From Streptomyces sp. NBC_00670 (GTDB lineage: Bacteria > Actinomycetota > Actinomycetes > Streptomycetales > Streptomycetaceae), in the NCBI RefSeq assembly GCF_036226765.1, contig NZ_CP109017.1, positions 4,465,001-4,529,000 on the forward strand: DNA of 64,000 nucleotides. The letters are read 5' to 3'. Below the pieces are notes generated by a model that made no database searches, was not told where the DNA came from, and was given only the letters and a program-made list of their open reading frames with translations. This document shows positions 46,356-49,037 of the stretch, in pieces. How positions within the stretch are numbered: position 1 is the first letter of the stretch; each line of letters opens with the position of its first letter. The position numbers and the translations under genes are program-made.

Positions 46356-46973
46356 TCAGCCGGCCGCCCGCTGCCCGGCCCCGAGGATCTCGTCGACGTC
46401 GAGGGTGACCTTGGCCCCGAGCGAGTCGGGCAGGGTGACCAGCTCACCGGGGGCATGGGGCCGGTGGTTCTCGTACCTGTCCCCGACGGGATCGGTGAGG
46501 ACATGCAGGCGCTGGTGCTTGCGGTCGACGATGACGTAGACGGGGATGTTGGCCCGTGCGTAGGCGGCGACCTTGGTCTTCAGGTCGTTCTTCCAGTTCT
46601 TGGAGGTGACCTCCAGCACCAGGCGAAAGCAGACCGGGTCGTACGCGCTGTTCTCGACATGGTGCTCATCAATGTCGGCGTCCACCACGACAAGGTCCGG
46701 AATGGCGTAGTCCTCGTCCTCCAACGGCAACCAGAGACCGACGCCTTGCAGCACCTCGGTCTCGCCGTCGTGCAGACCGGCCGCGATGAAGGAACGCATG
46801 AGCCGGGTCAGGACGCGAGCATGGGCACCGTCCCGAGTGGGGCTTACGAGGAGATGCCCGCCAATGATCTCGACGCGGTACCCCGGATGACGCTCCGAGA
46901 TCTCGTCGGCGATCGCGGTCAGGGCGACAGGCTCGTCGCCGTGAAAGCGCTGCTCGACGGTCGCACCGGACAT
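46356..46973 (-). CDS. Uma2-family PD-(D/E)xK endonuclease-like protein
   Basis: 205 residues from ATG 46973 after GGGAGG. The restriction-endonuclease fold shows the Asp in 'YAIPDLVVVDADID' and E-x-K equivalents in 'LVLEVTSKNWKNDLKTKVAA', followed by 'YARANIPVYVIVDRKHQRLH'. Uma2 proteins are plentiful in Streptomyces and cyanobacteria. Their DNA target and role are unknown. It marks the start of a small accessory patch. Confidence 0.9.
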   Translation of the reverse strand: MSGATVEQRFHGDEPVALTAIADEISERHPGYRVEIIGGHLLVSPTRDGAHARVLTRLMRSFIAAGLHDGETEVLQGVGLWLPLEDEDYAIPDLVVVDADIDEHHVENSAYDPVCFRLVLEVTSKNWKNDLKTKVAAYARANIPVYVIVDRKHQRLHVLTDPVGDRYENHRPHAPGELVTLPDSLGAKVTLDVDEILGAGQRAAG

Positions 46974-47067
46974 CACATGCCTCCCGTGGGCTGGTGTCGA
47001 GAGCATCATCGTAGGCAGCCGTGAGCCCCGGTGTCCCCCGCGAACCGCGTCACCCGAAGGTGTGCGC

Positions 47068-47280
47068 TCAGTCCCTCTGCGGCTGGTCCCGGACCGAAGC
47101 GGGTGCGACCCGTCGTGCCCAGAAGAGCACATGCCCTCCGTCGCCCTCCGGGACGAACCGCTCGCGCTCCACCACCAGCCCGGCCCGGGCGATCCACTCG
47201 CGGCTGGTGGCGGCGTCGGGCTGGCACCACCACATCGGGGCCCCGCCGCCCAGCCAGTCGTCAACCAGGCATGCGAAGAC
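47068..47280 (-). pseudogene. C-terminal remnant of a class I methyltransferase
   Basis: Reading the minus strand from about 47280 to the TGA at 47070-47068 gives 'LVDDWLGGGAPMWWCQPDAA', 'TSREWIARAGLVVERERFV' and 'PEGDGGHVLFWARR'. This is the end of a known actinobacterial SAM-dependent methyltransferase type. The frame hits a stop about 10 codons upstream of this stretch, has no good start, and the SAM-binding core is missing. I read it as a truncated, dead copy. The remaining gap from 46974 to 47386 contains nothing else I can support. Confidence 0.55.
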
Positions 47281-47386
47281 CCTCGACCGGTTTTCACCGG
47301 CTGCACTTCAGCCGCGCGCCCCGGCACCGAGCCGCCGCACGCGGCCCCAGGTGCTCGGATCGGTGCCGTCGCCGAGGGGGTGGTGA

Positions 47387-47836
47387 GTGCCGTCGGCCGT
47401 CGTGCTCCACGAGGACTCGCTTCACTACACGCCCGTGCTATGCACCGTCGGGCTGGCCAGGCGGCGGGCCGCTCGGCTTGTCGGGGAGTGGGGGTATCCC
47501 GGGCTCGCCGGGGACGTCGCGCTCGTCGTTTCCGAGCTCACGACCAACGCCCTGCTGCACGGCAGCCTGCGGGACCGGCTGATCCGGGTCCGGCTCGCCG
47601 TCACTCCCGCCGCGCTGAGCGTCGAGGTCGACGATCCGCGCGGCGAGCGGCTGCCGCGTCCTCGCGAGGTCACCGGCGAGGACCGGTTCGGGCGCGGGCT
47701 GCTGCTGGTCGGGGCGCTGACGGATGACTGGGGCGTACGCCCGCGCCCGGCCGGGGTCGGCAAGACGGTGTGGGCGCGGTGGCACCTCGGCGTCACCCTC
47801 TGCGGTACGGATGCGCACATCGGTGCGGAGGGATGA
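47387..47836 (+). CDS. RsbW-like ATP-binding protein (HATPase_c_2)
   Basis: 149 residues from GTG 47387 with GAGGGGG 6 nt upstream. GHKL ATPase motifs: 'VALVVSELTTNALLHGS' (N box), 'VEVDDPRGE' (G1) and 'DRFGRGLLLVGALTDDWGV' (G2). Streptomyces has dozens of these single-domain anti-sigma/kinase-like proteins. No sigma or anti-anti-sigma partner adjoins it. It lies 62 bp before the DUF6247 gene and could be co-transcribed. Confidence 0.88.
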   Translation: MPSAVVLHEDSLHYTPVLCTVGLARRRAARLVGEWGYPGLAGDVALVVSELTTNALLHGSLRDRLIRVRLAVTPAALSVEVDDPRGERLPRPREVTGEDRFGRGLLLVGALTDDWGVRPRPAGVGKTVWARWHLGVTLCGTDAHIGAEG

Positions 47837-47898
47837 CGGGGATGGCGCTAGCGTGGGCATGTGCCGCAGTGATGCTCGACGAACGGAAGGAGCGGCTG

Positions 47899-48252
47899 AT
47901 GTCGATGCCGCACGAGAACGGGGACGCTCCGCTCGTCCCCCGCCCCGAGCTGACGCTGCCGGCGCTGCGCCAGGCCGTGGCCGCGGTGGCTCCCTCCCGT
48001 CTGCCCGAGTTCTTCGAGGATCTCCAGAAGGCGTTCGTGCGGGCCGGGGACGAGGACAGCGTCGTACCGATCCGCATGTTCTACCGGCAGTGGGGAGTCG
48101 TGGTCGAGATCGAGCGGCAGCCGGAGATCGCCCGGCGGCTGCACGCCGCCGAGCAGGCCGTGGACGACCCGGACCCCGCCGTACGCGAGCGCGCCATTCG
48201 CGATGCCGCCGAGATCGTGCGCGCGGCGCACCGCGAGGTGGCGGGTGGCTGA
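47899..48252 (+). CDS. DUF6247 family protein, antitoxin-like
   Basis: 117 residues from ATG 47899 after GAAGGAG. All helical: 'LTLPALRQAVAAVAPSRLPE', 'FFEDLQKAFVRAGDED' and 'VPIRMFYRQWGVVVEIERQP'. Small acidic helical proteins of this family sit directly before RelE/ParE-sized genes in actinobacteria. Here the stop overlaps the next start by 8 bp. An antitoxin role is inferred from layout only. Confidence 0.7.
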   Translation: MSMPHENGDAPLVPRPELTLPALRQAVAAVAPSRLPEFFEDLQKAFVRAGDEDSVVPIRMFYRQWGVVVEIERQPEIARRLHAAEQAVDDPDPAVRERAIRDAAEIVRAAHREVAGG

Positions 48253-48496
48253 CTGGCGCTGGGAGTTGTTCCAGGACGACATGCTGGACGGCCTCCCGGA
48301 CACCGCCCGCATCGAGGCGGAACGCCTGGCGAACGAGATCGCCGTACGCGAGTCCATGGTCTTCCTGGAAGGAGCCGCCTACACGGGGCCCGGCCCGGGC
48401 GTGCGGAACGAAAGCCTGGGCATGCTCATGCTCACATACCTCACGGATGTGCGCGGCGAGCGGATCGTGGTGGTGCAGGTCAGCTGGTTCGGCTGA
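48245..48496 (+). CDS. Small RelE/ParE-like protein, possible toxin
   Basis: 83 residues from GTG 48245, inside the end of the DUF6247 gene. Helix–helix–strand order: 'MADWRWELFQDDMLDGLPDT', 'ARIEAERLANEIAVRESMVF', then strands 'LGMLMLTYLTDVRGERIVVV' and 'QVSWFG'. Size and a predicted two-helix then beta-sheet order fit the RelE/ParE fold, with an Arg in the penultimate strand (RGER). I cannot name the family with certainty; it could also be a simple DUF. Confidence 0.55.
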   Translation: MADWRWELFQDDMLDGLPDTARIEAERLANEIAVRESMVFLEGAAYTGPGPGVRNESLGMLMLTYLTDVRGERIVVVQVSWFG

Positions 48497-48536
48497 ACGC
48501 ACCCGTGCCATTCCGCTCAACCCGGTCCCGGTTCCG

Positions 48537-49037
48537 CTAACGCGGCCCCAACCCCGTCCGCCCGTCGAGCAGTTCGCGGGCCAGGTCCAGGTGGCCGGCG
48601 TGGCGGGCGGTTTCTTCTATCAGGTGGAGGACTATCCAGCGCAGGTCGGTGACGTCGTCGCCGTCCGGGCCGGGGTGGCGGCCCACCGGTGGTGCCGACA
48701 GCGGTGTGGCGGACAGGACCGCGTCGGAGCGCCGGCACTGTTCGCGGTAGAAGGCGAACACCACCTCCGGCGGCCGTGGCGTCGTCAGCGGGGCGTGGTC
48801 GTCGGGCCAGGCCAGCGGCTCGGCCGTCCCGGTGGCGACCTCCTGGAACCAGTGCCGTTCCGCGTAGCCCAGGTGCTCCACGAGCCCGAGCGGTGTCCAC
48901 CCGGACGGTACGACCGGTGTGGTCAGGGCTTGTTCGTCGAGGCCGTCGAGGATCGCCAGGACACTCGACCGCTGTGCGGCCAGGAACTCCGTCAGCGCCT
49001 GCTTCTCGTACTCGCCTTCGCCCGCTGCTGTGGTCAT
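48537..49037 (-). CDS. DinB-family protein (DUF664), damage-inducible promoter
   Basis: 166 residues, ATG 49037. DinB four-helix fold with metal-binding histidines: 'GLVEHLGYAERHWF' (H-x7-H type) and 'LIEETARHAGHLDLARELL'. Related to mycothiol S-transferases and maleylpyruvate isomerase. The promoter is of the RecA-NDp class and the ATG falls at the expected start point, so the transcript is probably leaderless and damage-induced. It could detoxify reactive electrophiles with mycothiol; the substrate is unknown. Confidence 0.9.
   Translation of the reverse strand: MTTAAGEGEYEKQALTEFLAAQRSSVLAILDGLDEQALTTPVVPSGWTPLGLVEHLGYAERHWFQEVATGTAEPLAWPDDHAPLTTPRPPEVVFAFYREQCRRSDAVLSATPLSAPPVGRHPGPDGDDVTDLRWIVLHLIEETARHAGHLDLARELLDGRTGLGPR

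Follow-up and report, generated by a model that had tools for sequence, protein, structure and literature searches.

A DUF6247 gene and an overlapping gene for a predicted RelE/ParE-fold protein in Streptomyces sp. NBC_00670: a candidate toxin-antitoxin-type module

Results

Gene organisation of the locus

The window, that is, the whole stretch of 64,000 nucleotides analysed from Streptomyces sp. NBC_00670, comes from a genome of one contig of 7.58 Mb. It contains two small genes, called ORF 1 and ORF 2 here, within an accessory patch. The features are given below in window coordinates.

46356-49037, no strand, accessory patch between conserved flanks (Uma2, a fragment, HATPase, the pair and a mycothiol-S-transferase-type gene)
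46356-47327, minus strand, Uma2 gene
47387-47836, plus strand, HATPase_c_2 (RsbW-like) gene upstream of the pair (Pfam PF13581, E 9e-12)
47849-47854, plus strand, TAGCGT, a possible -10-like element 50 bases 5' of ORF 1, its sequence kept by close orthologues
47885-47892, plus strand, GGAAGGAG, presumably a ribosome-binding-like stretch before ORF 1 (from the sequence)
47899-48252, plus strand, ORF 1, 117 amino acids, divergent DUF6247 protein and candidate antitoxin (Pfam, matches of relatives, model)
48245-48252, plus strand, 8-base overlap of the ORF 1 and ORF 2 frames, probably with translational coupling (from the sequence)
48245-48496, plus strand, ORF 2, 83 amino acids, GTG start, RelE/ParE-fold partner and candidate atypical toxin (model, profile link)

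ORF 1 runs from an ATG at 47899 to a TGA ending at 48252, and ORF 2 from a GTG at 48245 to a TGA ending at 48496. The sequence thus agrees with the preliminary description, which had given the gene pair at these positions with an 8-bp overlap and a second protein of 83 residues. Both genes are small and co-oriented and they overlap, which is the layout of type II toxin-antitoxin systems (two small co-oriented genes, overlapping or adjacent).

A sigma-70 scan gave no site, the -10-like TAGCGT before ORF 1 included, and nothing was returned by a terminator scan and Rfam. The -10-like boxes (47849-47854, and also those before other DUF6247 genes) lie within short palindromes in two subgroups, CGCTAGCG and CCGTACGG. 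These palindromes are possible operators.

The patch is bounded by a metallophosphoesterase gene on one side and by HK, RR and MMPL genes on the other. In 16 stretches of relatives selected for holding both flanks, neither ORF 1 nor ORF 2 had a tblastn match at E<=1e-4. Three of these stretches have the HK gene immediately after the metallophosphoesterase gene, with nothing between, and nine have a different HATPase (38-42% identity) at the site. Both of the neighbours named earlier, the Uma2 gene and the RsbW-like gene, are confirmed by Pfam, while the supposed "dead methyltransferase" is a 55-aa fragment with no convincing Pfam match (best E 0.26, to another family). In PADLOC, the Uma2 protein hits the candidate-defence models PDC-S03 as well (best E 5e-14). 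For the adjoining mycothiol-S-transferase-type gene, a comparison with 198 further genomes of the genus gave matches at E<=1e-30 in two of them.

ORF 1 is a divergent member of DUF6247

ORF 1 has a pI of 5.19 (D+E = 20 versus K+R = 15). It matches Pfam DUF6247 (PF19760) over residues 24-108 with an E value of 5e-4 and 20.6 bits, which is below the gathering cut-off of 26.9. DUF6247 is matched at E<=1 by 16 of the 17 rows of the ORF 1 family alignment, ORF 1 included, the best at 1.2e-9; ORF 1 is therefore a divergent member of the family, by homology and not by the cut-off. Its predicted model is a five-helix bundle with a mean pLDDT of 92.7. The first protein had been described as small, acidic, helical and a possible DUF6247 member, and it is all of these. 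Against seven close orthologues its dN/dS was 0.09-0.22, and against six others 0.13-0.33.

No usable PDB match was found for the DUF6247 fold (best Foldseek E 1.3, highest VIA Z 4.7), and neither a DNA-binding domain nor an antitoxin fold already known could be recognised in these structure searches. The DUF6247 profile gave nothing below E 0.2 against PDB sequences. The Pfam entry of DUF6247 gives its function as unknown. A name search of the open literature returned no mention of "DUF6247" or "PF19760", and the family may have been described under another name.

At four loci, L076, L082, L084 and L090, the DUF6247 protein is extended at its N-terminus and reaches about 155-160 aa. The C-terminal part of the four is DUF6247-like (hhalign probability 84.5). 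A Phd/YefM fusion was considered for them and rejected, as Pfam gave E 0.061 in one of the four only, and hhalign of the extensions with 14 Phd/YefM sequences scored 13.7 while 100 shuffles reached 14.2. Behind the extended DUF6247 gene, L076 and L084 both encode a RelE/HigB-like protein of a different kind, with an HPK.TE end in common.

Predicted structure of ORF 2

The protein encoded by ORF 2 has a pI of 4.3. No match at E<=1 was found for it in Pfam, NCBIfam or PADLOC, and its branch reaches no cut-off of Pfam or NCBIfam. Among 19 relatives, the best match to Pfam ParE_toxin was E 0.037, in one relative. The anti-phage defence models of PADLOC matched neither protein of the pair at E<=1.

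An AlphaFold model built on 25 sequences reached middling confidence (pLDDT 77.2, pTM 0.68). Its predicted order is a strand, one long helix and three strands (E4-7, H18-40, E53-57, E60-66, E72-80), which replaces the two helices followed by strands suggested earlier and corresponds to the strand, helix and three-stranded sheet of the BECR fold. Foldseek with this model gave toxin or toxin-antitoxin labels in 48 of the best 50 rows listed, the two others being a hypothetical protein of H. pylori and TrmO. The best Foldseek match had E 0.013 and probability 0.97, and none reached E<=0.001.

Structure prediction had been proposed as a check of the pair, and it assigns ORF 2 a RelE/ParE fold. VIA-align gave Z 8.6 to M. 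tuberculosis RelE1 (rmsd 3.0, 72 residues aligned) and Z 8.5 to RelE2 (rmsd 3.2, 72 aligned), values to be read with the program's own caution that Z below 8 is common by chance, so that 8.6 barely exceeds unrelated models; TrmO, which is not a toxin, gave 6.5. The predicted RelE fold draws its weight from the agreement among the families of the structure matches and from the separate profile evidence given below. The preliminary description had also pointed to a late Arg. It exists as R70, which is invariant in 19 of 19 rows of the family alignment and lies in the turn joining the last two strands of the model, and it is not aligned with a catalytic residue of RelE.

Profile links to the RelE/ParE superfamily

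The ORF 2 family profile alone gave nothing below E 0.59 against PDB sequences, and its direct hhalign comparison with ParE_toxin sequences was not significant (probability 2.9). An intermediate profile was made from ten partners of Pfam-strong DUF6247 genes in class loci. The ORF 2 family matched it with hhalign probability 96.1, P 3e-9 and a score of 49, where 200 column shuffles did not exceed 18. The intermediate profile in turn matched the ParE_toxin sequences of relatives with probability 82, P 1e-5 and score 32 (200 shuffles, at most 23). Against PDB it found YoeB (E 6e-4), Rv2866 RelE2 (8e-4) and T. thermophilus RelE (3e-3). A joint profile of the ORF 2 family and the Pfam-strong partners found T. 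thermophilus RelE at E 1.1e-4 and Rv2866 at 1.2e-3, the next match being at 0.11.

Other DUF6247 partners did not join the ORF 2 family: two further sets gave hhalign probabilities of 0.6 and 0.2, and the L073 partner 10.3. The set of L075, L077 and L078 joined the Pfam-strong partner profile (probability 90.2) and had no direct relation to ParE_toxin (1.4). The profile comparisons thus suggest a relation between ORF 2 and the RelE/ParE superfamily that passes solely through the intermediate family of Pfam-strong DUF6247 partners. Taken together, the modelled structure, the profile comparison and the genomic pairing support the descent of ORF 2 from the RelE/ParE toxin superfamily.

Departure of ORF 2 from canonical RelE

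According to the accessible part of PMC12620021, the toxicity of RelE1 requires R60, R65, R85 and Y89, of which R65, R85 and Y89 correspond to R61, R81 and Y87 of E. coli RelE. The paper also reports that neither RelE1 nor RelE2 was toxic in E. coli. When the profile was aligned to Rv2866 and T. thermophilus RelE, the basis of this comparison throughout, no counterpart of R60, R65, R85 or Y89 was found in ORF 2. The RelE stretch R-x-G-x-Y-R aligns to Arg-free residues of ORF 2 (S57/L58 and M62/L63, the two alignments being one position apart), and the C-terminus of ORF 2 lies at about the last RelE Arg, short of the Tyr. By alignment ORF 2 has no match to the conserved Arg/Arg/Tyr that RelE RNases need for cleavage, and by its pI it is not basic as these RNA-binding proteins are.

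The acidity is general. Within the matched stretches, the pI of the 62 intact partners, counting the one in the window, runs from 4.05 to 6.69 (median 4.6), so that every one is acidic, as are 8 of the 10 alignment rows of the partners of Pfam-strong DUF6247 genes. The ParE_toxin sequences of relatives have a median pI of 9.5 (ten of 19 places), with 3 of the 10 acidic. The RNase residues are likewise missing from ParE toxins, as stated in the part of PMC11980606 that is available.

Distribution and conservation of the pair

ORF 2 was matched in 53 of 297 genomes of the family, its own included. Thirty ORF 2 loci were retrieved, one of which (L003) is the window itself. At 27 of the 29 relatives' loci a DUF6247-like ORF ends at most 8 bases from the start of the ORF 2 match, so that the type II layout claimed for the window is conserved; at L024 such an ORF lies further upstream of a partial match, and at L014 none was found. 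In one collection, 34 named ORF 2 loci were detected, mostly of Streptomyces, the other genera being Nocardiopsis, Actinomadura, Kineosporia, Jiangella and Actinacidiphila.

A HATPase copy of at least 67% identity lies upstream in 13 of these 34 loci; in some loci the upstream DNA is too short for a decision. The HATPase_c_2 gene is a possible third component of the module, its membership being uncertain. Distant Uma2 genes (28-36%) occur elsewhere in 8 of the 34, and the mycothiol-type, HK and MMPL genes were near the pair in none. At L054, of Nocardiopsis halotolerans, a tRNA-Pro gene (L054:3500-3574) directly precedes the pair and is a possible integration site.

The DUF6247 profile was matched in 107 of 200 Streptomycetaceae genomes sampled. 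Ninety DUF6247 places of the family were examined (30 retrieved loci and 60 chosen from the rows listed; three lie in the window's genome, one of them the pair itself). The partner was intact at 62, broken or partial at 16 and without a profile match at 12, some of which show short remnants by eye. Among the 62 intact pairs, the window's included, an in-frame start codon for the partner overlaps the DUF6247 stop by 4 bases in 50 and by 8 bases in seven; it lies 4 bases behind the stop in two, and no such codon was found within 12 bases in three.

In the class, DUF6247 was found at E<=1e-5 in 63 of 394 genomes. RelE-like ORFs were directly downstream in part of the 30 class loci retrieved, as judged by an ORF filter. 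The partner profile matched in 25 of the 30, in 24 at or behind the DUF6247 end; at L134 the match lies upstream and probably belongs to a neighbouring copy. Several of these matches are fragments or contain stops. Among the class loci outside the profile building, 14 of 20 had a partner match at or behind the DUF6247 end.

Purifying selection acts on ORF 2: comparison with nine close orthologues gave a dN/dS of 0.06-0.11, and with six more distant ones 0.14-0.29. Distances between ORF 1-type and ORF 2-type proteins were correlated over the 62 pairs (Mantel r 0.79; maximum of 1000 permutations 0.18), a correlation that common descent alone would also yield.

When 396 genomes of the phylum were searched, the ORF 2 profile matched in at least three, all of the same genus; at most 13 candidates were scored per genome, and this count is therefore no measure of absence. 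No match was found in 50,697 phage records, none was confirmed in two scans of viral contigs, and PHROGs gave nothing below E 0.08. Two plasmid records were matched, both of Embleya.

Decay of partner genes

The window's genome has five DUF6247 loci, and only the pair in the window has an intact partner. Four were listed by the profile search, and the fifth match was taken to be the one at 4630470. At 4630805 the partner, by reading, meets a stop some 40 codons in, and at 6231116 it is frameshifted, also by reading. At 3061271 a partner fragment accompanies a DUF6247 gene that itself has a stop, and at 4350552 there is no partner profile match and a remnant by eye. With its five DUF6247 matches, this genome has no ParE_toxin and no Phd/YefM match at E<=0.001.

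Of the 34 loci retrieved with ORF 2 as bait, 10 have a broken or partial ORF 2; the same is true of DUF6247 in six, or in seven if L049 is counted, where the first nine profile positions are missing. By manual classification, ORF 2 alone is broken in six, L049 among them, and DUF6247 alone in two. At the 90 places found by DUF6247, one DUF6247 gene has a stop in its matched part versus the 16 broken or partial partners, an excess explained in part because the DUF6247 bait favours open DUF6247 genes. An asymmetry of decay, with the partner lost more often than DUF6247, is suggestive only. In two of the 34 loci (L051 and L054) an intact-looking ORF 2 match stands beside a frameshifted DUF6247 gene, which misfits a potent toxin unless these are sequencing errors.

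Discussion

We propose, with a probability of about 0.5, that ORF 1 and ORF 2 form a toxin-antitoxin-type module of type II layout, which would belong to an undescribed branch of the RelE/ParE superfamily and whose toxin would not cleave RNA as RelE does; the proposal is built on sequence comparison and models. What was computed is a conserved overlapping two-gene cassette, the ancestry of ORF 2, an all-helical DUF6247 protein, presence at different sites and frequent decay of the partner. The toxicity of the module, its neutralisation and its target are what we infer. The "RelE-like toxin" of the preliminary description thus stands for fold and ancestry, and fails for the RelE residues, absent at the aligned positions, and for charge. 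A toxin-antitoxin pair by descent is supported, and ORF 2 as a RelE-like toxin in action is a candidate only.

In the proposed mechanism DUF6247 would be the antitoxin, made first and coupled in translation to its partner, and it may wrap or cap the RelE-fold protein. The putative toxin would probably cleave no RNA by the RelE mechanism, given its acidity and the absence of the RelE residues at aligned positions. More probably it would inhibit a protein target by binding, as ParE does with gyrase, or hit some other target. RelS (Rv2663), a toxin of the RelE superfamily, cuts 16S rRNA although the conserved RelE residues are missing, according to the accessible text of PMC13284704, and an RNase activity of another kind is therefore conceivable for ORF 2. 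The wider proposal, that DUF6247 and its partners form an actinobacterial toxin-antitoxin branch with an acidic non-nuclease toxin, a new protein target and an antitoxin fold new to such systems, is tentative, and we consider it doubtful in its full form.

The main rival is domestication, in which a former RelE/ParE toxin, no longer toxic and without its active site, serves with DUF6247 as a regulator or sensor. The missing active-site residues at the aligned positions, the acidity of every intact partner, the purifying selection on ORF 2 and the RsbW-like gene that precedes the pair in 13 of 34 relatives would all agree with it, and the XRE-DUF397 pair Scr1/Scr2 of S. coelicolor offers a precedent (PMC6262351, as far as its available part goes). 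However, an addiction-type module would better account for the patchy distribution (53 of 297 genomes), the presence at different sites and the many cases in which DUF6247 stays and its partner is lost, and we hold domestication to be rather unlikely. A decaying remnant of a mobile element, non-functional here and with ORF 2 open merely for lack of time, could be imagined from the many broken relatives and from the broken or missing partners at the other four DUF6247 loci of the genome. It becomes very improbable in view of the low dN/dS of ORF 2 against its nine intact close orthologues, the two open frames and the retained start overlap. Equally hard to maintain is a canonical RelE-type ribosome-dependent mRNA interferase with DUF6247 as a RelB-like antitoxin: the predicted RelE fold and RelE structures as best matches favour it, but R60, R65, R85 and Y89 have no aligned counterpart, ORF 2 ends before the Tyr, and its pI is far from basic.

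The nearest in structure are RelE1-RelB1 (Rv1246c/Rv1247c) and RelE2-RelB2 (Rv2866/Rv2865) of M. tuberculosis, which include the best structural matches of ORF 2 and likewise pair a small protein of RelE fold with a second product of the same operon. Unlike them, ORF 2 lacks the residues required in RelE1, is acidic and is partnered by DUF6247, not RelB. ParE_toxin (PF05016) belongs to the same superfamily as ORF 2 and shares the lack of RNase residues (PMC11980606, accessible part), whereas ORF 2 is acidic, has no Pfam match and shows no significant direct profile similarity to it. Among the closest known systems are also the DUF6247 genes and partners of other actinobacteria: ORF 1 is a divergent member and ORF 2 is homologous to the partners, but ORF 1 falls below the Pfam cut-off and the ORF 2 branch has an N-terminal W-x-W-E motif of its own. 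RelS-RelI (Rv2663-Rv2664) resembles the pair by description only, in that the available portion of PMC13284704 presents an atypical RelE-superfamily toxin missing conserved RelE residues and an antitoxin, RelI, without structural homologues, as with DUF6247; unlike ORF 2, RelS resembles BrnT. The XRE-DUF397 pair is also small and from Streptomyces, and its kind was once put forward as toxin-antitoxin; it is of other families and is reported as a positive regulator (both from the accessible part of PMC6262351). The relBE1 locus of S. cattleya was predicted but is not toxic, according to the part of PMC4989188 that is available.

DUF6247 genes occur in more than half of the sampled Streptomycetaceae genomes (107 of 200), mostly with an ORF 2-type partner at the 90 places examined. 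If ORF 2 is toxic, the RelE/ParE superfamily would gain a branch in which the nuclease residues are lost and the charge is reversed, a natural experiment on how one fold changes its target. If it is not, the pair would be a clear case of the domestication of a toxin fold. With either outcome, a function could be assigned to a domain of unknown function.
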